A stretch of DNA of 64,000 bases. It comes from Geodermatophilus tzadiensis. Lineage in GTDB: Bacteria; Actinomycetota; Actinomycetes; Mycobacteriales; Geodermatophilaceae. The position numbers and the translations under genes were made by a program. The notes beneath the pieces were generated by a model that worked only from the letters and a program-made list of their open reading frames with translations, made no database searches and had not been told where the DNA came from. This document shows, piece after piece, positions 6,951-39,332 of this stretch (position 1 is the stretch's first letter; each line of letters opens with the position of its first letter). The stretch covers positions 248,001-312,000 of the forward strand of contig NZ_PVTG01000004.1 in the NCBI RefSeq assembly GCF_003002915.1. Direction: 5' to 3'.

Positions 6951-7466
6951 TCAGAAGGGCGGCTCGTCGCCGGCGTCGCCGGCCGGCGCCCCCCACGGGT
7001 CGCCGCCGCCGCGCCCGCCCCCGGTGCCCGGGCCGCTCTCGCCGGACCCGCCGCCGGGTCCGCCGAACCCGCCGGACCCGCCGCCGGGACCGCCGCCCGA
7101 GCGGGACGCCTTGGCGACGGTGGCCGTCGCGTAGCGCAGCGACGGGCCGATCTCGTCGACCTCCAGCTCGATGACGGTGCGGTTCTCGCCCTCCTTCGTC
7201 TCGAAGGAGCGCTGCTTGAGACGGCCCTGCGCCATCACCCGCGAGCCCCGGGTGAGGGACTCGGCGACGTTCTCCGCCGCCTGCCGCCAGACGCTGCAGC
7301 GCAGGAACAGCGGGTCGCCGTCCTTCCACTCCTGGGTCGAGCGGTCCAGGGTGCGCGGGGTCGAGGCGATGGTGAAGTTGGCGACCGCGGCGCCCGAGGG
7401 CGTCCAGCGCAGCTCGGGGTCGCTCGTCAGGTTGCCGATGACGGTGATGACTGTATCGCCGGCCAT
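6951..7466 (-). CDS. ssb: Single-stranded DNA-binding protein
   Basis: A 171-residue SSB. The OB fold occupies residues 1-110 ([59 protein letters not shown]). A long glycine-rich linker follows, and the C terminus ends in the acidic tip DEPPF, which binds partner repair proteins. It is not in the usual rpsF-ssb-rpsR ribosomal operon, so it is probably a second, dedicated ssb paralog. Its minus-strand promoter at 7515-7537 matches the RecA-NDp (PafBC-type) DNA-damage motif, and its neighbours are a RecD2 helicase and a phage-type recombination pair. Role inferred: coating ssDNA in damage-induced recombination. Confidence 0.93.
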
Positions 7467-7514
7467 GATCCGGTCCTCCGTGTCGTTCGGTGCACAGCTC
7501 AGGTGAGCGCCCGG

Positions 7515-7537
7515 AGGCTACGAGGAGCCACCGACAG
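7515..7537 (-). promoter_or_regulatory. RecA-NDp (PafBC-type) promoter of ssb
   Basis: Read on the minus strand: CTGTCGGTG, 8 bases, TAGCCT. The published mycobacterial motif for LexA-independent, PafBC-dependent damage promoters is TTGTCRGTG-N8-TAnnnT; this site matches 8 of 9 upstream bases, has the exact 8-base spacing, and matches all fixed -10 bases. The -10 ends about 48 bases before the ssb start. Confidence 0.75.
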
Positions 7538-7598
7538 TTCCCGGGGCCCGCGGCACTGTCACTGGCCGGTGTCACCATCGGCGGCCGGAGGGGTGACG

Positions 7599-9851
7599 GT
7601 GGGGGGAACGCAGGTGGGTGAGGCGCGGGCGGGCTCGGTGCTGGAGGCGACGCTGGAGCGCGTCACCTTCGCCAACGCCCAGACCGGCTACACCGTGGCG
7701 CGCGTGGACACCGGCCGCGGCGGTGACCTCGTCACGGTGGTCGGGTCGCTGCTGGGCGCGCAGCCGGGGGAGACGCTGCGGCTGCGCGGCCGCTGGGGGG
7801 CGCACCCCCAGTACGGCCGGCAGTTCCAGGTCGAGGACTACACCACCGTGCTGCCGGCGACGGTGCAGGGCATCCGCCGCTACCTCGGCTCGGGCCTGGT
7901 CAAGGGGATCGGCCCGCGGCTGGCCGAGCGGATCGTCGACCACTTCGGCACCGACGCGCTGCGGGTGATCGAGGAGGAGCCGGCGCGGCTGGCCGAGGTG
8001 CCCAGCCTCGGTCCCAAGCGCACCCGGTTGATCACCGAGGCGTGGGAGGAGCAGCGGGCCATCAAGGAGGTGATGGTCTTCCTGCAGGGCGTGGGCGTCT
8101 CGACGTCGCTGGCCGTGCGGATCTACAAGCAGTACGGCGGCGCCTCCATCGGCGTCGTCCGCACCGAGCCCTACCGGCTGGCCGCCGAGGTGTGGGGCAT
8201 CGGCTTCAAGACCGCCGACACCATCGCCGCCGCCGTCGGCATCCCGCACGACAGCACCCAGCGGGTCGAGGCCGGGGTGCAGTTCGTGCTCTCCGAGGCC
8301 ACCGGGCAGGGGCACTGCTTCCTGCCCGGGCCGGAGCTGGTCGCGCGCGCCGTCGAGGTGCTGCAGGTGCCCGCCACCCTGGTGGGCCACTGCCTGGCCT
8401 GCCTGGTCGCCGAGCAGGGCGTCATCCGCGACGAGCTGCCCACCGGGGACGGCGGGCCCCCCGAGGTGGCGTACTACCTGGTGCCCTTCCACCGCGCGGA
8501 GGTGTCCCTCGCCGCGGGGCTGCGGCGGCTGGCGACGGCCGACGACGACCGGATGGGGGCCTTCGCCCGGGTCGACTGGGACGCCGCGTTGGCCTGGCTG
8601 CACCGGCGCACCGGCGTCGAGTTGGCGCCCGGCCAGCAGGAGGCGGTCCGCCTGGCGCTCACCGAGAAGGTCGCCGTCCTCACCGGCGGCCCCGGCTGCG
8701 GCAAGAGCTTCACCGTCCGCTCGATCGTCACCCTCGCCGCGGCCAAGGGCGCCCGCGTCGTGCTCGCCGCGCCCACCGGCCGGGCGGCCAAGCGGCTCAC
8801 CGAGCTGACCGGCGTGGACGCGGTCACCGTGCACCGGCTGCTGGAGCTGCGCCCCGGCGGGGACGCCGCGTACGACCGCGACCGGCCGCTGGAGGCCGAC
8901 CTGGTCGTGGTCGACGAGTCCTCGATGCTCGACCTGCTGCTGGCCAACAAGCTGGTGCGGGCCGTGCCGCCGGGCGCCCACCTGCTGCTGGTGGGCGACG
9001 TCGACCAGCTGCCCTCCGTCGGCGCCGGCGAGGTGCTGCGCGACCTGCTCGCCGAGGGCACGCCGGTCCCGCACGTGCGCCTGACCCAGGTCTTCCGGCA
9101 GGCCAGCCGCTCGGGCGTGGTCACCAACGCCCACCGCATCAACGCCGGACACCTGCCGCAGGTCCGCGGCCTCGACGACTTCTTCCTGTTCGCCACCGAC
9201 GACGCCGAGGAGACCGCCCGGCTCGCCGTCGACGTCGTCACCCGCCGGATCCCGGCCCGCTTCGGCCTCGACCCGCGCCGCGACGTCCAGGTGCTCACCC
9301 CGGTGCACCGCGGGCCGGCCGGCGCCGCCGCGCTCAACGAGCAGCTGCAGGACGCGCTCACCCCGGCCCGGCCCGACCGGCCCGAGAAGCGCTTCGGCGG
9401 GCGGGTGTTCCGCGTCGGCGACAAGGTCAGCCAGATCCGCAACGACTACGACAAGGGCCGCAACGGCGTCTTCAACGGCACCCAGGGCCTCGTGACCGCG
9501 ATCGACCCCGTCGAGCAGACCGTCACCGTCGTCACCGACGAGGACGAGGAGATCACCTACGACTTCGGCGAGCTCGACGAGCTGGTGCACGCCTACGCCG
9601 TCACCGTGCACCGCTCCCAGGGCAGCGAGTACCCCTGCGTCGTCGTCCCGCTGACCACCAGCGCCTGGACGATGCTGCAGCGCAACCTGCTCTACACGGC
9701 CGTCACGCGCGCCAAGCGGCTGGTCGTGCTGGTCGGCTCGACCCGGGCCCTCGGCCAGGCGGTGCGCGCCGCGGGCTCCGGACGGCGGCACACCGCGCTG
9801 GCCGCCCGGCTGCGCGGCCGCCCGGCAGAGACCGACGCCGCGGCGGCCTGA
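7599..9851 (+). CDS. RecD2-like SF1B DNA helicase
   Basis: A 750-residue 5'-3' helicase of the RecD2 type, working without RecB/RecC. The N-terminal region carries helix-hairpin-helix motifs (VKGIGPRLAERIV, VPSLGPKRTRLI, VWGIGFKTADTI). The helicase core has Walker A GGPGCGKS near residue 363 (cysteine and serine replace the usual threonines), the Walker B motif DESSM, and C-terminal motifs VHRSQGSEYP and YTAVTRAKRLVV that follow an SH3-like insertion. The GTG at 7599 is chosen for GGAGG 7 bases upstream. It is divergent from ssb. RecD2 proteins act in mismatch, break and replication-fork repair; a role alongside the neighbouring ATPase and nuclease is inferred. Its length is normal for the family. 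Confidence 0.92.
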   Translation: MGGTQVGEARAGSVLEATLERVTFANAQTGYTVARVDTGRGGDLVTVVGSLLGAQPGETLRLRGRWGAHPQYGRQFQVEDYTTVLPATVQGIRRYLGSGLVKGIGPRLAERIVDHFGTDALRVIEEEPARLAEVPSLGPKRTRLITEAWEEQRAIKEVMVFLQGVGVSTSLAVRIYKQYGGASIGVVRTEPYRLAAEVWGIGFKTADTIAAAVGIPHDSTQRVEAGVQFVLSEATGQGHCFLPGPELVARAVEVLQVPATLVGHCLACLVAEQGVIRDELPTGDGGPPEVAYYLVPFHRAEVSLAAGLRRLATADDDRMGAFARVDWDAALAWLHRRTGVELAPGQQEAVRLALTEKVAVLTGGPGCGKSFTVRSIVTLAAAKGARVVLAAPTGRAAKRLTELTGVDAVTVHRLLELRPGGDAAYDRDRPLEADLVVVDESSMLDLLLANKLVRAVPPGAHLLLVGDVDQLPSVGAGEVLRDLLAEGTPVPHVRLTQVFRQASRSGVVTNAHRINAGHLPQVRGLDDFFLFATDDAEETARLAVDVVTRRIPARFGLDPRRDVQVLTPVHRGPAGAAALNEQLQDALTPARPDRPEKRFGGRVFRVGDKVSQIRNDYDKGRNGVFNGTQGLVTAIDPVEQTVTVVTDEDEEITYDFGELDELVHAYAVTVHRSQGSEYPCVVVPLTTSAWTMLQRNLLYTAVTRAKRLVVLVGSTRALGQAVRAAGSGRRHTALAARLRGRPAETDAAAA

Positions 9852-9917
9852 CCGGTCGCCGGCGTCCGGCCGCGGCAGCCACCGGGCGACGGCGGGCGCG
9901 CCGGGCGGGGGAGCAGG

Positions 9918-10481
9918 TCAGGACGTGCCCAGCCGGCGCACCTCCAGCGCCTGCTCGTACTGTTCCCGCCGGGCCTCCAGCGCCACCTGGGCCGCCATCT
10001 CCAGACCGGCGAGGGTCTCCTCCACCTGCTGCAGCCGCTCCCACCAGGTCCGCACCGCCTCCGGGCCGGCCAGGTCGACCGGCGAGAGGCCCAGCAGGCC
10101 GCGGATCGAGGCGTCGGCCTCCTCCAGCACGCCGGACTCGTCCTCCGGCGCGGCGGCCCGCGCCGCCCAGAACACCTCCGCCCACAGCGCGGCCACCGCG
10201 ACCCCGCCGGCCGGCGGCACGCGCTGCTCGAACGCCTGCCGCCGGCCGGCGGCGACCACGGTCAGGCGCAGCGTCAGGAACCGGCGGGTCAGCCGCAGGA
10301 ACTCCGGTGCGGAGGCCCGGCACCCCTCGGCGGTGCCGGCGCCGAGGACCCCCGCGCACAGGTCCTCGAGGCGCTGCGACGTCTCCCGGCTCCACTGCCA
10401 CAGGTCGTAGGGCGTCGCCCCCCGCAGCGAGGCCGCCTCCCCCGGGTCGCCGTCCGGACCGTCGTGGGAGGAGCCGCTCAC
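9918..10481 (-). CDS. Hypothetical alpha-helical protein between helicase and ATPase genes
   Basis: A 187-residue, predominantly helical, soluble protein I do not recognise. The N-terminal 20 residues are acidic and disordered. Notable stretches are TPYDLWQWSRETSQRLEDL, LTRRFLTLRLTVVAAG and a charged C-terminal helix (ALEARREQYEQALEVRRL) that may form a coiled coil. The start at GTG 10481 is supported by a TAGCCT -10-like hexamer (10489-10494 on the minus strand) ending 7 bases upstream, which suggests a leaderless message. It is convergent with recD2 and divergent from the Sak4-like ATPase. An accessory role in the recombination block is guilt by association only. Confidence 0.7.
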   Translation of the reverse strand: MSGSSHDGPDGDPGEAASLRGATPYDLWQWSRETSQRLEDLCAGVLGAGTAEGCRASAPEFLRLTRRFLTLRLTVVAAGRRQAFEQRVPPAGGVAVAALWAEVFWAARAAAPEDESGVLEEADASIRGLLGLSPVDLAGPEAVRTWWERLQQVEETLAGLEMAAQVALEARREQYEQALEVRRLGTS

Positions 10482-10641
10482 ACCACCGCAGGCTAGTGCC
10501 GGCGGCTCGCCCGGTCAGCGAGCCCCGCCGTCGCCTGTGGACGGCCGTTCCGCCGCCGCGGCGGAGGCGGAGTGCCCGTGGATTCCGCTCGGAGCGAACA
10601 CGCGGCGTGCGGGCCCGGCGAGCCGTCTTGACACCCCGGTT

Positions 10642-10664
10642 CTGTCGGTACCCGTCCCTAGATT
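10642..10664 (+). promoter_or_regulatory. RecA-NDp (PafBC-type) promoter of the ATPase-nuclease operon
   Basis: CTGTCGGTA, exactly 8 bases, then TAGATT. Against TTGTCRGTG-N8-TAnnnT it matches 7 of 9 upstream bases, the spacing and every fixed -10 base. The predicted transcript start near 10671 leaves a leader of about 32 bases carrying AAGGAG 6 bases before the ATG. A nearby TTGACA (10628-10633) has no correctly spaced -10. Confidence 0.7.
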
Positions 10665-10702
10665 GCGGATCGACATCTTCCCCGTGTCACAAGGAGTCCA
10701 CC

Positions 10703-12196
10703 ATGGCCGTCCCTGGCCTCAAGACCCGCAAGCCGACCGGCCGCGTGCCCTGGCCCTGCATCCTGCTGGAGGGTGAGGAGAAGTCCGGCAAGAGCTGGTC
10801 CCTGGCGCAGCTCAGCGCCTCGGACAAGATCGGCGCCCTGTACTGGATCGACCTCAACGAGGGTGCCGGCGACGAGTACGGCGCCATCCCGGGAGCGAAC
10901 TACCACCTGGTCGAGCACGACGGCTCCTACGCGCAGGTGCTCGCCGCCGTCCAGGCGGTCAAGGCGGAGGCGCGCCGTGCGGCCGACGCCGGCGAGCGGC
11001 CGGTGGTGCTGGCCATCGACACCGGATCCGCGATCTGGGACGGCCTGAAGGACTGGGCCAGCGAGCGCGCCGCGAGGTCGACCCGCAACCGCGAGCTGCT
11101 CAAGCGCGACCCCAACGCCGAGGTGACGATCAGCCAGAACCTGTGGAACGACGCCGGCGCCCGCTGGCGCAAGCTGCAGACCGAGCTGCTCACCTTCCCC
11201 GGCATCGTCGTGGTGACCGCCCGGGGCAAGGAGGTCACCGAGGTGGACGCCAACGGCCGCCCGATCGAGGGGCAGAAGACCTGGTCGGTGCAGACCCACC
11301 GGGAGTTCCCGTACGCCGCGAGCGTCTGGGTGCGGCTGCGCCGCGGCCGCCGGCCGCTGATCGTCGGCGCGCGCAGCGTGCACGTCGGCATCAAGCCCAA
11401 CGACGACCCGGCCCGGGAGGTCACCGCGACCGAGGCGAAGGGCCGGCTGCTGGAGTGGCTGGTCTTCGACGCGCTCCAGTGCGACCCGGGCACCGCGCAC
11501 GTGCGCGACCTCGTCTCCTTCCACGGCGGCGGGCTGCTCGAGCACGAGCGCACCGAGGAGGCTCGCGCCGACCGGACGCCCGACCGGCCGGCCACCCGGG
11601 CCGGCGGGCGGGGCGAGCCCGACGTCGCCGACCTGGTCGCGCGGATCGGCGACGCCCGGGACGACGACGAGCTGCGCGAGGTGTGGAGCCAGGGCAACCG
11701 CACCGGCCTGCTGCAGGTCGACGTGCCGACGGCCACCGGTCCCTACACGCTCGCCGAGCTCATCCGGGCCCGGCACGAGGAGCTCCTCGAGGCGGCGGCG
11801 CAGGCCCACCCGGCCGGGCGGCGCCGGGTCGCGGCCGGCGACCCCTCGGTCCCGCAGACGCCCCCGGCGGTGGTGCAGGCCGCCCAGGCGGCCGCCGCTG
11901 CCGCCCGGTCCGCCGCCGCGGCACCGCGGCCCGACGCCGAGCGGGAGGCCGCCCCGGCCAACCCGCTGCTGGAGTCCTCGCCGACCCCGGACGACCCCCG
12001 CGAGCGCCGGAGCACCGCCGCCCGCCGGGGCGTGCTCGCCAGCCTGGAGGCGCTGGGCGTGACCGAGGCGCAGATCGGCGAGCGCTTCGGCCGGCCGGTC
12101 GAGCACGTGGCGACCAGGCGGCTGACCGCGCTCGTCCGCGACGTGATCGCCACGCAGCGGGCCGCGGAGACGGGGCAGCAGGAGATCGTCGCGTGA
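10703..12196 (+). CDS. RecA-like ATPase, Sak4-type (phage-style recombinase/annealing ATPase)
   Basis: A 497-residue P-loop protein. Walker A GEEKSGKS lies at residues 24-31 and a Walker B strand VVLAIDT ends at D106. Between them, LYWIDLNEGAGDEYG resembles the minimal RecA-fold ATPases (AAA_24 / Sak4 group) found in phages. The conserved core ends near residue 270; the rest is an alanine-rich linker and a helical tail (GVTEAQIGERF...LTALVRDVIATQR) that may bind DNA or protein. AAGGAG lies 6 bases before the ATG. The nuclease gene follows after 61 bases, so they form an operon under a PafBC-type promoter. Phage Sak4 proteins work with SSB in strand annealing; that role here is inferred. Confidence 0.75.
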   Translation: MAVPGLKTRKPTGRVPWPCILLEGEEKSGKSWSLAQLSASDKIGALYWIDLNEGAGDEYGAIPGANYHLVEHDGSYAQVLAAVQAVKAEARRAADAGERPVVLAIDTGSAIWDGLKDWASERAARSTRNRELLKRDPNAEVTISQNLWNDAGARWRKLQTELLTFPGIVVVTARGKEVTEVDANGRPIEGQKTWSVQTHREFPYAASVWVRLRRGRRPLIVGARSVHVGIKPNDDPAREVTATEAKGRLLEWLVFDALQCDPGTAHVRDLVSFHGGGLLEHERTEEARADRTPDRPATRAGGRGEPDVADLVARIGDARDDDELREVWSQGNRTGLLQVDVPTATGPYTLAELIRARHEELLEAAAQAHPAGRRRVAAGDPSVPQTPPAVVQAAQAAAAAARSAAAAPRPDAEREAAPANPLLESSPTPDDPRERRSTAARRGVLASLEALGVTEAQIGERFGRPVEHVATRRLTALVRDVIATQRAAETGQQEIVA

Positions 12197-12257
12197 CCTC
12201 CGCCACCGGAGCGGGGCCGGTCCGTCCGGCCCCGCTCCCCTCCGGGGGAGGAGCGCG

Positions 12258-13307
12258 GTGACCGCCGTCCTGCCCGCCCGCCCCAGCGCCGCCGAGCGGC
12301 GGGCCGCGCCCAGCCTGGCCGCGGCCGTGCGCGACCTCGACCGCCGCCGGGCCCGCTCCCGCCAGCGGGTGATCGGCGCCTCCGAGCTCGGCGAGTGCCG
12401 CCGCCGGGCGGCCTACCGGGTCGCCCGGCGCCGGCCCACCAACACCCGCACCGGCCTGCAGGCCTTCCTCGGCACCGAGTTGCACCGCGGGGTGCTGCGC
12501 GCGCTGCGCCGCCAGTACGGCGGGCTGACCGAGGTCGGGCTGCGGGGCGAGCAGGTCAAGGGCCGCTGCGACTGGTGGCACGACCCGGTCGTGGAGGACC
12601 TCAAGACGACGTCCCGGTTCGGCTTCGAGCGGGTCCTCACCCGTGGCGTCCCGGTGCGGCACTGGTTCCAGGTGGCCGTCTACGCCTGGCTGCTGCGCAC
12701 CGGCCAGACCGCCGACCGCCGCCTGCCGGCCGGCGACGGCCAGGACGTCGAGGGGCTGCGGCTGCGCTACCTGTCGCGCGACTCCGGCGAGGACGTCGTC
12801 TTCGAGGCGGGGTCGGACCCGGCGCTGACGGCCGAGGCGCTCATGTGGCTCACCGACGTCTACGCCACCGTGGAGGACGACGGCGTCGACGCCGTCCCCC
12901 GCGACGGGTTCGGCCCCGGCGTGGACGCCATGTGCGACTGGTGCCCGTTCCTCGACCTGTGCTGGGGCCCGCCCGTGGACCCGGAGACCGAGGGCGAGGC
13001 CTCCCGCCAGTCCCGCCTGACGGTCACCGACGCCGACTACGTCCAGGCCGTGCACGACTACGACGCCTGGCGGGCGGCCGAGACCGAGGCCCGCCGGCAC
13101 AAGGAGTACGCGCGGGAGCGGCTGCGCGGCCGGTCGGGGCCCGCGGGCGGGCTGCACTGCGAGTGGTCCGGCGGCGCCCTCCGCACGCAGGTCGACAAGG
13201 ACGCCGCGGTCGAGCGGCTGGCCGACCTCGGCGAGGAGGTGCCCACGCGGACGGCGCGCAGCGCCCGGACGATCCGGGTCACCCGGACCGGCACCCGGCC
13301 CGGCTGA
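12258..13307 (+). CDS. PD-(D/E)XK exonuclease with four-cysteine Fe-S cluster, Cas4/RecB-like
   Basis: A 349-residue nuclease. The RecB-family motifs read H76, D105 (GRCDWW), E113-D-L-K115 and Q138xxxY142. Four cysteines frame the core: C47 before it, then C226-x2-C229-x5-C235 (MCDWCPFLDLCW), the arrangement that holds a [4Fe-4S] cluster in Cas4 and AddB nucleases. A basic helical tail extends from about residue 270. Start GTG 12258 has GGGAGGAG upstream. It is the second gene of the operon with the Sak4-like ATPase. There are no cas genes or arrays, so this is a DNA-end resecting nuclease of a recombination system, not a CRISPR component. Polarity is unknown. Confidence 0.85.
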   Translation: MTAVLPARPSAAERRAAPSLAAAVRDLDRRRARSRQRVIGASELGECRRRAAYRVARRRPTNTRTGLQAFLGTELHRGVLRALRRQYGGLTEVGLRGEQVKGRCDWWHDPVVEDLKTTSRFGFERVLTRGVPVRHWFQVAVYAWLLRTGQTADRRLPAGDGQDVEGLRLRYLSRDSGEDVVFEAGSDPALTAEALMWLTDVYATVEDDGVDAVPRDGFGPGVDAMCDWCPFLDLCWGPPVDPETEGEASRQSRLTVTDADYVQAVHDYDAWRAAETEARRHKEYARERLRGRSGPAGGLHCEWSGGALRTQVDKDAAVERLADLGEEVPTRTARSARTIRVTRTGTRPG

Positions 13308-13351
13308 GCCGACACGCCGGGAGACGACGGGCGGCGCCCCGAGGTGCACAA

Positions 13352-13367
13352 TCGAACGCACGTTCGA
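13352..13367 (+). promoter_or_regulatory. Perfect actinobacterial SOS box (LexA site)
   Basis: TCGAACGCACGTTCGA: both 6-bp half-sites of the actinobacterial LexA consensus TCGAAC-N4-GTTCGA are intact. It lies 20 bases upstream of the 86-residue gene and abuts a CACAAT -10-like hexamer (13347-13352), where LexA would block transcription. Confidence 0.85.
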
Positions 13368-13387
13368 ACCACTGCAGGAGGTCCGCG

Positions 13388-13648
13388 ATGAGCACCGTCC
13401 CCACGTCCCACCTGTCCGCTGGGGAGCCCGTCCTGACCAGCGACGTCGTCGGCACGGACTTCGGCCTGCCGCTGGTCCGGCCGACCCGGACCCGGCAGGG
13501 CAGCCGGGTGCGCGTCGTGCGCTCGCGCTGCCGGTCCCGCGGCGGCGTCGTCGTCTGGTTCACCGACGGCACCAAGACCCCGCCCCTGCACGGGCGCACC
13601 GGCTGGCTCGTCGCCGAGCCCGGGGAGCCCGCGCACGACGTGGCCTGA
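13388..13648 (+). CDS. SOS-controlled small protein (86 aa), unknown function
   Basis: An 86-residue, soluble, basic protein of unknown family. The middle (QGSRVRVVRSRCRSRGG then VVVWFTDGTKTPP) suggests a small beta-barrel or SH3-like fold with an arginine-rich strand, compatible with nucleic-acid binding; one cysteine is present. GGAGG lies 8 bases before the ATG. The perfect SOS box 20 bases upstream makes damage-induced expression likely. It follows the nuclease stop by 80 bases but has its own promoter region, so it is co-located rather than simply cotranscribed. It may be a recombination mediator, nuclease inhibitor or checkpoint protein; none of these can be chosen from sequence. Confidence 0.8.
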   Translation: MSTVPTSHLSAGEPVLTSDVVGTDFGLPLVRPTRTRQGSRVRVVRSRCRSRGGVVVWFTDGTKTPPLHGRTGWLVAEPGEPAHDVA

Positions 13649-36962: not shown

Positions 36963-38168
36963 TCAGTCCGCCGGGTCCGGCGCGGAGGGTGGGGTTCCGG
37001 TCGGCGGCTCCGGCCGGGGAGGCGCCTCCGCGGCCCCGCCGTCCGCGCTGTCCGCCGGTGGGGGGCGGTGCGCCTCGGCCAGCTGAGCGCGTGCCGATGC
37101 CGCGTCGGCGACGGCCCGGTCCCGCGCCTCCTCCGCGCGCAGGCGGTCCCGGCGGCTCTCCTCGGCGCGGCACTCGGCCTGCTCGGCGCGGTCCTCCTGG
37201 GCCCGCGCCCGCTCGGTCGCGGCGTCGGCCCGGGCGGTCGCCGCCTGCACCCGGCCCTCCGCGGCCGTGGTCTCCAGCCGCGCGGCCGCCGCCGCCTGCT
37301 CGGCGCCGCCGACCGCCCGCGCCGCCTCCGCCCGGACGCGCTCGGTCTCGGCACGGGCGGCACGCTCGGCCTCCAGCGCCCGGTCGCGCGCCGCCTCCGC
37401 GGACGCCGCCCGCTCCTGCGCCGACGCGGCGTCGGCCAGCGCGCGGTCCCGGACCTCCTCCGCCCGCGCGGTCCCGTCACGGGCCGACTCCGCGTCGCGC
37501 TCGGCCGCCGCGCGTCGAGCCTCGGCGTCGCGCCGCCCCGCCTCGGCCCGCGCGGCGGCCGCCCCGGCGGCGTCTGCATCGGCGCGCGCCTGCTCCGCGG
37601 CCGCCTGGGCGGCGCCGGCGGTCTCCCGGGCGGTGGCCGCCTCGTCCCGGGCCGCCGCCGCCCGGTCCCGGGCGGCAGCCGCCTCCTCGCGGGCGCCGGC
37701 GGCGTCTGCATCGGCGCGCGCCGCGACCTCGAGGGCCTCCCGGGTCGCCTTCTCGGCGACCGCGCGCCGTCGGTCGGCGCGGGACGCGCGCTGCTCGGCC
37801 TCGGCGACCTCGCGGCGCGCGTCGGTGCGGACGGCGGCCCGCTCGGCCTCGAGCAGCTCCGCGTCGGCGGCCCGGGTCAGCGCCTCCCGGGCCCGGCCCA
37901 CCTGGTCCTCGATCGCCGCCAGCGTCTGGCGGAGCCGGTCGGCGACCTCGGTCAGCGTCGCGGCGGCCGGCGCTCCGGGCTGCGGGGCGGCGGGCGCCTC
38001 CGCGGCGGCCGGCGCGCGCCCGGCGGCCTCCGCGCGGCGGGCGGCGAAGGCGGTCGTGCGGTTGTGGTCGGGGCGGGCGCAGTACGACGACCGCCCGCCG
38101 GTGGGTGGGGGCGGGGCCACCGGGCGGTCGCAGTCCGGATACGCGCAGATCGCCGAGGCCTCGGTCAT
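36963..38168 (-). CDS. Alanine-rich coiled-coil protein with N-terminal zinc-finger-like motif
   Basis: A 401-residue protein. Residues 1-40 hold C8, C13, C30 and H35 (AICAYPDCDRPV ... SYCARPDHNR), a small zinc-binding-like module. From about residue 75 to 375 it is almost entirely a charged, alanine-rich helix with heptad character, predicting a long coiled coil; the tail is proline-rich. The architecture recalls KfrA- or plasmid-segregation-type DNA-binding coiled coils, but I see no helix-turn-helix. It is divergent from a tyrosine recombinase across 105 bases containing an inverted repeat, so the two may be a functional pair. The ATG at 38168 is chosen to begin just before the cysteine motif. 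Confidence 0.75.
   Translation of the reverse strand: MTEASAICAYPDCDRPVAPPPPTGGRSSYCARPDHNRTTAFAARRAEAAGRAPAAAEAPAAPQPGAPAAATLTEVADRLRQTLAAIEDQVGRAREALTRAADAELLEAERAAVRTDARREVAEAEQRASRADRRRAVAEKATREALEVAARADADAAGAREEAAAARDRAAAARDEAATARETAGAAQAAAEQARADADAAGAAAARAEAGRRDAEARRAAAERDAESARDGTARAEEVRDRALADAASAQERAASAEAARDRALEAERAARAETERVRAEAARAVGGAEQAAAAARLETTAAEGRVQAATARADAATERARAQEDRAEQAECRAEESRRDRLRAEEARDRAVADAASARAQLAEAHRPPPADSADGGAAEAPPRPEPPTGTPPSAPDPAD
37564..37722. repeat. 27-bp direct repeat within the coiled-coil gene
   Basis: The same 27 bases occur at 37564-37590 and 37696-37722 (core GGCGGCGTCTGCATCGGC), 132 bases apart, a multiple of three. They encode the same ARADADAAGA segment, marking internal duplication of the coiled coil. 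Confidence 0.8.
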
Positions 38169-38255
38169 GCGGCCGAGTCTCTCGTCGTTCGTGTCGTGAC
38201 GCACGAGCGGACGAACGACCGTACGACGGCGCAAGTCCGCGGAGTTGCACGGAAC

Positions 38256-38280
38256 ACTCCATAATCAGCTGTTATGGAGT
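38256..38280. promoter_or_regulatory. 25-bp inverted repeat over the recombinase promoter and start codon
   Basis: Arms ACTCCATAA and TTATGGAGT flank TCAGCTG. The left arm supplies CATAAT, a near-consensus -10 hexamer (38260-38265), and the right arm contains the ATG at 38274, so the message is probably leaderless. On the other strand GATTAT may serve the divergent coiled-coil gene. Protein binding here would switch off both; it could be an autoregulatory operator or a recombinase-bound site. Confidence 0.6.
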
Positions 38281-39332
38281 CCTCGTGGAACGGCGGCGGA
38301 GCGGTCGGCCCCCATCCGTCGGGAGCGGTCGTCGCCGGGCCGACGCGACCGGGGGAGGGCGACGTCGACCCCGCGGCAGGAGGCCTGGTGCTGCCCGGGG
38401 ACGTCGCGGCGGTGGGGCGCTACCTCACCGCCGCGAGGTCCGAGGCCACCCGCCGGGCCTACGACGCGGACTTCCGCGCCTGGTCCACCTGGGCCCGGCA
38501 GCGCGGCTTCTCCCCGCTGCCCGCGGCCGACGCGGCGGTGGCGGCGTACCTGGCGGCGCTGAGCGACGCGGGGGCGAGCCCGCGCACGATCGCCCGCCGG
38601 CTGTCCGGCATCGGGCACGCCCACCGCGAGGCCGGGCACCCCAGCCCGTCGGAGCACCCGGGCACGCGCGCGGTCCTCCGGGGCATCCGGCGCACCGCCG
38701 CCCGCGACGGCCGCCGTCCCAAGAAGGCCCGGGCGCTGGACACCCAGACCATCCGGGCACTGGTCGAGGACCTCCCGGACGGCGTGGCCGGCCTGCGCGA
38801 CCGGGCGATCATCCTCACCTCCTTCGCGCTCGGGCTGCGGGCCTCGGACGTCTGCGGGCTGGACGTGGGCGACCTGGCCCCCTCCGGGCACGGCGGCCTG
38901 GACGTCACCATCCGCTGGTCGAAGACCGACCAGGAGGGCGCCGGTGAGGTGCTGGCCCTGGCGCCCGGCGTGCGGGCGCGGACGTGCCCGGTGCGCGCGC
39001 TGCACGCCTGGGTCGAGGCGGCCGACCTCGGCGGCTCGGGGCCGCTGTTCCGCAGCGTCGGACGGGGCGCGCAGCCCCGCATCGGCCGGACCCGGATGGC
39101 CCGCTCGTCGGTGCGGCTGGTCCTGCGCCGGGCCGCCGAGCGGGCCGGCGTCCCGCTCGAGGGGCTGAGCCCGCACAGCCTGCGCCGGTCGTTCGCGACC
39201 GAGGGCTACCGGGCCGGGGTCAGCGAGCGGGAACTGGCCCGCACCGGCCGGTGGGCCTCGGTGACCACCATGCGGGGCTACGACTCCAGCAGCCGCTGGG
39301 CGGACCCGGCGTCGGCCCGGCTCGGTCTGTGA
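38274..39332 (+). CDS. Tyrosine recombinase / integrase
   Basis: A 352-residue phage-integrase-family recombinase with complete catalytic residues: R in FALGLRASDVCGL, K in IRWSKTDQEG, H-x-x-R in LSPHSLRRSFATE, W in TGRWASVTTM (the usual H/W position) and nucleophile Y in MRGYDSSSRW. A SAM-like core-binding domain (YLTAARSEATRRAYDADFRAW) spans about 45-150; the first 40 residues are glycine-rich and disordered. No excisionase, tRNA or prophage gene is nearby. The ATG lies inside the right arm of a 25-bp inverted repeat. It is divergent from the zinc-finger coiled-coil gene. Confidence 0.9.
   Translation: MESSWNGGGAVGPHPSGAVVAGPTRPGEGDVDPAAGGLVLPGDVAAVGRYLTAARSEATRRAYDADFRAWSTWARQRGFSPLPAADAAVAAYLAALSDAGASPRTIARRLSGIGHAHREAGHPSPSEHPGTRAVLRGIRRTAARDGRRPKKARALDTQTIRALVEDLPDGVAGLRDRAIILTSFALGLRASDVCGLDVGDLAPSGHGGLDVTIRWSKTDQEGAGEVLALAPGVRARTCPVRALHAWVEAADLGGSGPLFRSVGRGAQPRIGRTRMARSSVRLVLRRAAERAGVPLEGLSPHSLRRSFATEGYRAGVSERELARTGRWASVTTMRGYDSSSRWADPASARLGL

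Follow-up and report, generated by a model that had tools for sequence, protein, structure and literature searches.

A 64,000-nt stretch of the 4.87-Mb Geodermatophilus tzadiensis genome (GCF_003002915.1, NZ_PVTG01000004.1 positions 248,001-312,000), referred to here as the window, contains a compact group of genes: ssb, recD2, an ATPase gene, a nuclease gene (nuc) and a small gene denoted sml. With evenly balanced confidence, the group is interpreted as a chromosomal, damage-regulated cassette for end-processing and strand annealing that is kept together and exchanged within the Geodermatophilaceae. The cassette would be built from an actinophage-family recombinase, a Cas4/AddB-like nuclease, a duplicated host single-stranded DNA-binding protein (SSB), RecD2 and an SOS-controlled small protein. 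What appears to be new here is that a phage-type annealing set has become a chromosomal cassette with damage-type control. The titles and abstract openings listed in searches of the open-access literature contained no account of a unit of this kind, subscription papers lying outside this coverage, and gave no report of a phage-family recombinase as a PafBC or LexA target.

A first-pass annotation made from the sequence had described five DNA metabolism genes and one protein of unknown function in this part of the window. All six were found where it had placed them, and the families of ssb, recD2, the ATPase and the nuclease were confirmed.

Co-occurrence and gene order

Conserved co-occurrence in related genomes had been named beforehand as a test of the cassette. 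The genes were found to co-occur, to be absent together and largely to keep their order. Near relatives of the ATPase in named genomes (n = 20) belong to 19 Geodermatophilus and one metagenome-assembled genome labelled Frankiales. Of 112 genomes of the family, 26 carry the ATPase, including 23 of the 26 members of the genus with the window's own genome among them. Outside the genus it is present in close form in two genomes of two other genera (G502 and G506) and at 41% identity in G422, which was treated as a different copy, leaving 25 close carriers. The nuclease is found in 22 of these, sml in 24 and both in 21; neither was found elsewhere among the 112 family genomes. Weak second matches to the nuclease in G456 (E 3e-4) and to sml in G444 (E 6e-4) were not counted. 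RecD2, whose distribution covers 30 genomes while that of the nuclease and sml covers all 112, was found in each of 24 close carriers other than the window's genome and in none of six genomes without a close ATPase. RecD2 had been regarded as a cellular bystander; from these counts, it goes with the set.

The order of the genes is similarly stable. ssb, recD2 and the ATPase gene lie together in 18 of 19 Geodermatophilus loci, with six called genes between recD2 and the ATPase gene in locus L026. The ATPase and nuclease genes are adjacent in all 17 of the nuclease-bearing loci, and sml lies within the locus in 15 of the 19.

Three members of the genus (G439, G455 and G457) have no ATPase, nuclease, sml or RecD2. 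In a tree of 13 genes they branch separately among the carriers, G457 with G447 (support 100 in both the nucleotide and the protein tree), G439 with G452 (94 and 98) and G455 on its own branch. The deepest nodes of this tree are weak (41-65, nucleotide tree), G439 is represented by 4.4 of 12.5 kb and G456 was left out. On this tree the whole set is reconstructed as having been lost, or gained, on three occasions or more; for linked genes a single deletion would suffice for loss. An earlier species tree from the single radA locus, in which other genera fell inside the genus, was replaced by the 13-gene tree.

The ATPase and its phage relatives

The ATPase gene (10703-12196, plus strand) encodes a 497-aa protein with a Rad51/RecA fold and a helical C-terminal extension. 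It belongs to an actinophage recombinase family (phrog_1366, E 1e-49), which the PHROG library lists as a phage family of unknown function; the match to Pfam AAA_24 reaches 25.6 bits, below the cut-off of 27. A tblastn search produced relatives in 147 phage records, 128 of them from Mycobacterium phages and 12 from Gordonia phages. The best 40 of the 147, which include the "RecA-like DNA recombinase" type of Mycobacterium phages Jeon and Dorothy and Gordonia phage Phabuloso, are 51-55% identical over 84-91% of the 316-aa query; they are annotated mostly as RecA-like recombinase or AAA ATPase, and one as a Sak4-like annealing protein. A profile scan identified 124 relatives in viral contigs, of which 80 were kept. 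The Walker A sequence is GEEKSGKS, with E26, K27, G29 and K30 invariant in 37 sequences.

The AlphaFold2 model (pLDDT 83.8) extends the helical C-terminal region to residue 497, and the viral relatives likewise have C-terminal extensions of varying length. A Foldseek search of the model against the PDB ranked RAD51/RadA structures from 1 to 13 (E 4e-7 to 6e-6), several of the top matches being RAD51-paralog complexes, and placed Sak4 (8rc5) at rank 42 (E 3e-5, target TM 0.51). Sequence searches of the PDB with the ATPase, nuclease and sml products returned nothing significant. From its sequence and predicted model, the ATPase is related to phage recombinases and has a RecA/Rad51 fold. The first-pass annotation had called it Sak4-like, a label that stands for the predicted fold, with 8rc5 among the matches, and for the company the gene keeps; it does not stand for sequence, where similarity to the profile of HK620 Sak4, the Sak4 member compared in this way, is limited to the Walker A loop. 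With its extension, the ATPase also departs from the core-only architecture given for Sak4 in the available text of PMC5928155.

Like the Sak4 modules of HK620 and Staphylococcus aureus phage 52A, the group places a RecA/Rad51-fold ATPase in the same cluster as an ssb gene. In the portions consulted of the papers concerned, up to 80% of sak4 genes are said to adjoin an ssb and HK620 Sak4 to be stimulated by its SSB (PMC5928155), and SSB-assisted annealing is described for HK620 Sak4 (PMC5928155) and for Sak of phage 80alpha (PMC11846896). The present group differs from these modules in its chromosomal location, its damage-type promoters and its inclusion of RecD2, a Cas4-like nuclease and an SOS small protein. 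The surroundings of the phage-type relatives are also different. Their neighbours include helicases, of the SNF2 type in 19 and the UvrD type in 10 of 88 clustered loci, or else HNH and WhiB genes; no homolog of the nuclease or sml was found in 92 fetched surroundings.

In a search of the order, the ATPase matched 30 of 397 genomes with an E value of 1e-8 or lower; 11 of these lie outside the family, and the loci of seven of the 11 were retrieved. In at least five of them the gene lies among many small open reading frames (ORFs), and in three an integrase was recognised by eye. In G753 it stands beside a YqaJ exonuclease gene (Pfam, above cut-off) with an SSB gene about 5 kb away. A phylum-wide search with phrog_1366 "matched" 308 of 396 genomes, and also 13 of 14 control genomes. 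Among the matches listed, four were strong (E 1e-86 to 4e-44). The rest were no better than E 1e-9, almost all of them over positions 17-98, and these were taken as RecA/RadA-type P-loops and not counted.

The fold matches bear on an alternative in which the ATPase is a RecA paralog rather than an annealase and, with RecD2 and SSB, remodels replication forks or RecA filaments. RAD51/RadA proteins and RAD51-paralog complexes are its best structural matches, RecD2 of Bacillus subtilis is described in the accessible part of PMC12143592 as modulating fork progression and RecA activity, and dnaB, radA and ruvC have the same type of promoter as the ATPase gene (see below). A RAD51 fold match does not discriminate between these functions, however, and the relatives of the ATPase are phage proteins, one of them with YqaJ and SSB in a phage annealing arrangement. 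A fork-restart or RecA-modulating complex is considered unlikely, and strand annealing is the preferred role.

The core of the ATPase is under purifying selection (dN/dS 0.21). Since the protein is of a phage family and lies outside any recognisable prophage, the earlier inference that the system is domesticated is supported for the ATPase.

In locus L027 and in G502 an intein with LAGLIDADG features interrupts the ATPase exactly in Walker A (GEEKxGK^S), with LAGLIDADG_3 above cut-off in the former. The two are diverged LAGLIDADG-type inteins of roughly 330-345 aa in two genera (L027:6930-9458, plus strand; L225:4144-6636, minus strand).

The nuclease, RecD2, SSB and the small protein

The nuclease gene (12258-13307, plus strand) encodes a PD-(D/E)XK protein (PDDEXK_1, 28.6 bits, cut-off 22; phrog_1706, Cas4-type, E 2e-15) with a four-cysteine Fe-S-type signature. 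Residues H76, D105, D114-x-K116 and Q138-x3-Y142 and the cysteines C47, C226, C229 and C235 are invariant in all 10 aligned sequences. The catalytic motifs together with one plus three cysteines form what we take to be the AddB/Cas4 pattern. On this basis the protein is assigned to the AddB/Cas4-type Fe-S nucleases, its cluster and activity being predicted. It resembles AddB, Cas4 and Dna2-type nucleases in these motifs and cysteines and differs in being encoded by a stand-alone gene paired with the ATPase gene, outside a CRISPR or AddAB set. A tblastn search of phages gave no match, a pattern scan of viral contigs found nothing and plasmids gave one weak partial match. The dN/dS of the nuclease is 0.19, as is that of recD2.

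recD2 (7599-9851, plus strand, with a start at 7599 or 7614) matches TIGR01448 at 827 bits (cut-off 500), and its product has HHH_RecD2 and SH3 domains (PF14490 and PF18335, both above cut-off). It is accordingly classed by sequence as a RecD2 helicase, an SF1B helicase/translocase.

ssb (6951-7466, minus strand) forms the left end of the cassette and encodes a 171-aa protein (Pfam SSB, E 8e-29) with the C-terminal tip DEPPF. Over 117 aa it shares 87% identity with the SSB encoded on contig C22, which is the genome's replicative SSB; by eye, the gene of the latter adjoins rpsF- and rplI-like genes. Since identity to four phage or element SSBs is 73-80%, and to a fifth 51%, the paralog is probably a host duplicate. 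It had been listed as a phage-style component, a description that does not suit a protein of host type. The dN/dS is 0.34 for both ssb and sml.

sml (13388-13648, plus strand) encodes an 86-aa protein predicted to be mostly beta, with a near-invariant core VVWFTDGTKTPPxHGRT in alignments. No family was found for it in the Pfam, NCBIfam, PHROG and PADLOC libraries. The best AlphaFold2 model has a pLDDT of 75 and the other four 45-65; structural matches are weak and consist of uL2/tudor-type chains (best E 0.05). A tblastn search of phages and plasmids gave no match. The sole distant relative found is 64% identical and lies among many small ORFs on a 113-kb viral-labelled contig (L138/L320), with no LexA box within 450 nt upstream.

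Damage-type control sites

Three damage-response sites had been proposed, serving ssb, the ATPase-nuclease pair and the small gene, and all three were found, two of the PafBC type and one LexA box. The first is an element like RecA-NDp, the PafBC promoter, ahead of ssb (TGTCGGTGGCTCCTCGTAGCCT, 7515-7536, minus strand), the second is a promoter of the same kind for the ATPase-nuclease pair (TGTCGGTACCCGTCCCTAGATT, 10643-10664, plus strand) and the third is the LexA (SOS) box ahead of sml (TCGAACGCACGTTCGA, 13352-13367, plus strand).

In mycobacteria PafBC acts through the RecA-NDp promoter, which occurs in other Actinobacteria as well, and single-stranded DNA triggers PafBC, according to the available text of PMC6789036 and PMC8223512 and of PMC11804915, respectively. 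The pattern TGTCRGTN9TANNNT, chosen after the ssb and ATPase sites had been seen, has 11 matches in the genome, two of which are these sites, and none for a reversed control. A published-type PafBC consensus was taken as TTGTCRGTGN8TANNWT. In all 21 loci compared for the ATPase gene, its best match falls 38-39 nt ahead of the start codon; for ssb the distance is 47-49 nt in all 20 loci. Over these 41 sites the mismatches number one in 4, two in 19, three in 12 and four in 6; both sites of the window have two. At two mismatches or fewer there are 23 of the 41 sites, which are related and not independent, versus 9 of 8200 mononucleotide shuffles and 5 of 2554 window tiles.

Repair genes are among the company of the sites. 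Of the other nine in the genome, four stand ahead of genes that NCBIfam assigns above cut-off (ruvC, radA, pup, and ybaB, which has recR after it). Two precede below-cut-off matches, to dnaB (truncated by the locus end) and to a RecB/AddB/Cas4-type nuclease; the remaining three are followed by genes with no NCBIfam match (L183:1059-1493, minus strand; L177:1603-1902, plus strand; L179:1311-1457, minus strand), which may be unrecognised damage-response genes. By their RecA-NDp-type promoters, ssb and the ATPase gene are placed with the PafBC regulon, their regulation being predicted.

For LexA, TCGAACN4GTTCGA was used as the presumed actinobacterial box consensus. The genome has seven perfect sites, one of them ahead of sml, and 33 at one mismatch or fewer versus 7 for a reversed control. 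A box at one mismatch or fewer lies within 450 nt of 16 of the 25 sml copies in 24 genomes. These include all eight copies with no nuc in the locus, although the distance in G454 is 396 nt and G443, G444 and G446 form one clade. The nine box-less copies start about 18-93 nt 3' of nuc and may be transcribed from the PafBC operon. By its box, sml is placed with the LexA (SOS) regulon, again as a prediction. Two sml copies are present on G448:C17 (462843 and 509795), one beside nuc and with no LexA box, the other 47 kb away with a perfect LexA box 226 nt upstream.

The kinds of promoter, box and target genes are like those of the mycobacterial PafBC (RecA-NDp) and LexA regulons; the difference here is a phage-family recombinase as a target. 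A three-mismatch match ahead of recD2 was seen by eye and was not counted; recD2 has no established site of its own.

Three of the genes named above merit a separate mention. PafBC-type sites and LexA-type boxes stand side by side at ruvC (G000:C3:208098-208138, L178) and at dnaB, which has an apparent intein (G000:C22:24885-24927, L187). The pup gene, an equivalog-domain match above cut-off, is preceded by a PafBC-type site (G000:C13:58393-58414, L184), and pupylation in Geodermatophilus may be induced by damage.

An inverted repeat, GACAT-N7-RTGTC (10672-10688, plus strand), lies between the PafBC-type -10 element and the ATPase start. As GACAT-CTTCCCC-RTGTC it is strongly conserved when the leaders of L009-L028 are set side by side, and it is a candidate mRNA hairpin. 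The ssb leader has a small hairpin of its own (GCTC-ACCT-GAGC). Single-sequence folding of the leader hairpins was no better than that of shuffles.

Exchange of the cassette

Whereas the cassette is kept together, its setting is not. Within the 4 kb that flank the cassette, an ordered pair of the 19 loci has 4.6% of its genes in common, and 268 of 342 pairs share none. The surroundings of radA in 27 genomes, a core region and the one control compared, are shared at 76%, and none of 702 pairs share nothing. Some flanking genes recur, and the setting is therefore scrambled rather than random. Nucleotide distances follow core-gene distances poorly for the ATPase core (r 0.40), recD2 (0.40) and the nuclease (0.53), while r is 0.80-0.95 for five slices of the core set, each the size of a gene. 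G440, for example, is nearest to the window's genome by core genes, recD2 and the nuclease, yet at least four other ATPases are closer to the window's than that of G440. Since the cassette genes follow the core so poorly, the cassette seems to have been exchanged within the Geodermatophilaceae. Among the repeats listed at the cassette ends, none was convincing.

The same pattern suits an anti-phage or anti-plasmid defence system, in which the helicase, nuclease, SSB and ATPase would degrade or disable invading DNA and the damage promoters would sense phage replication. Patchy presence in the family (26 of 112 genomes), occurrence in three genera, flanks that differ between species, the disagreement of gene distances with the core and the invasion of the ATPase by inteins all speak for it. 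On the other side, no PADLOC model matched the ATPase, ssb, u187 (a 187-aa protein encoded between recD2 and the ATPase gene) or sml; the nuclease matches Cas4 there weakly (E 0.002), and the matches of RecD2 to RecD-like, type IV CRISPR RecD and other helicase models were taken as generic. Furthermore, 23 of 26 genomes of the genus have the ATPase, and the promoter type is common to repair genes. Defence is judged an unlikely function.

A third alternative would give the genes no joint function, being selfish or passively linked by moving together in a rearrangement-prone region. The relatives of the ATPase and sml in phages or a viral-labelled contig, and surroundings that differ between loci, agree with this. 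Among the two nearest genes per side at 17 loci, however, no transposase or integrase was seen by eye; the one exception is the tyrosine recombinase that L022 has between nuc and sml. The promoter sites are conserved at fixed spacing, sml is found only in carriers and its detached copies have LexA boxes, and the genes are under purifying selection. Passive linkage is considered very doubtful.

Proposed function and points against it

The biochemical steps of a repair cassette, and its induction, are what we infer from the gene identities, fold, promoter motifs, co-occurrence, order and purifying selection observed above. Broken or stalled DNA would expose single strands and activate PafBC, as published for mycobacteria, and RecA/LexA. 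PafBC would switch on transcription of ssb and the ATPase-nuclease pair, and sml would be switched on by LexA release or by read-through from nuc. RecD2 and the nuclease might open and trim the ends, and the SSB paralog, going by its family, would coat the strands. The Rad51-fold ATPase would then exchange with SSB and anneal or pair homologous strands, as Sak4 and phage precedent suggest, and RuvC and RadA, whose genes have the same promoter type, might help to finish the joints. A more ambitious proposal, put forward tentatively, is that radiation-tolerant actinobacteria captured a phage-type recombination system, self-contained and under both damage-response arms, which is passed between species as a unit and whose RecA-independent annealing reassembles chromosomes, with sml as a partner or brake.

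Several observations weigh against the repair cassette. With respect to the ATPase, F1 and type III secretion ATPases appear in the Foldseek list from rank 14 and target TM-scores for RAD51/RadA are just ~0.4-0.5, so that the fold indicates a RecA-like class more surely than a function. The comparison with the HK620 Sak4 profile by hhalign gave a probability of 2% over 20 columns, and the phage relatives are called recombinases by annotation. With respect to control, the PafBC consensus at one mismatch finds two other places in the genome, neither of them the ssb or the ATPase site. As the 11-match pattern was chosen post hoc and the consensus misses these sites, the evidence lies in the company of the sites and in their conservation; PafBC control of the cassette is predicted from promoter sites, as is induction.

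The linkage also has exceptions. In G453 all parts are present but on three contigs (ATPase-nuclease, ssb-recD2 and sml), the nuclease is missing from one carrier clade (G443, G444 and G446) and sml is missing from G447. A defence cassette, too, would be expected to have a patchy, exchanged pattern. High tolerance to gamma rays, mitomycin C and desiccation is described for two Geodermatophilus strains, and tolerance to the first two was measured for the type strain DSM 44209 (PMC4119925). The ATPase locus of DSM 44209 (L013) has neither nuclease nor sml beside it, and no nuclease was found genome-wide in G446, which was matched to L013; absent from a gamma-tolerant type strain, the nuclease is dispensable for the tolerance measured there. 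Together with the three members of the genus that lack the set, this strain weighs against a general role in radiation tolerance.

Repair systems are usually regarded as vertically inherited core functions and phage annealing systems as viral. Here, a phage-family recombinase is found in what seems to be a repair cassette open to exchange and equipped with PafBC- and LexA-type sites. The genus includes strains that tolerate radiation and desiccation to an extreme degree. Annealing proteins contribute to genome reassembly in Deinococcus, and the cassette provides a concrete test case for whether RecA-independent annealing does so in actinobacteria. Natural carriers and close non-carriers, such as the sister genomes G447 and G457, may serve as built-in controls. 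The cassette may also yield a recombineering tool for actinobacteria.

Other features of the window

The u187 gene (9918-10481, minus strand) is a loose companion of the cassette. No family was found above chance, with no match in Pfam, NCBIfam or PADLOC and a single PHROG at E 0.09. It is present in 10 of 20 loci (L009-L028) in two alternative positions, the gap between recD2 and the ATPase gene or 3' of nuc/sml, and is weakly constrained (dN/dS 0.73).

In agreement with the first-pass annotation, no phage structural gene was recognised by eye among the gene calls of the window, no family scan of the flanks having been made. A tyrosine-recombinase-like gene is present at 38388-39332. It adjoins a gene for a 370-410-aa protein with an N-terminal CAYPDC-type motif, the two occupying 36963-39332, 23 kb from the cassette. 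The same CAYPDC-type protein and tyrosine recombinase are encoded between nuc and sml in the L022 locus of G. siccatus (L022:10593-12883), and the two genes could be a mobile pair.

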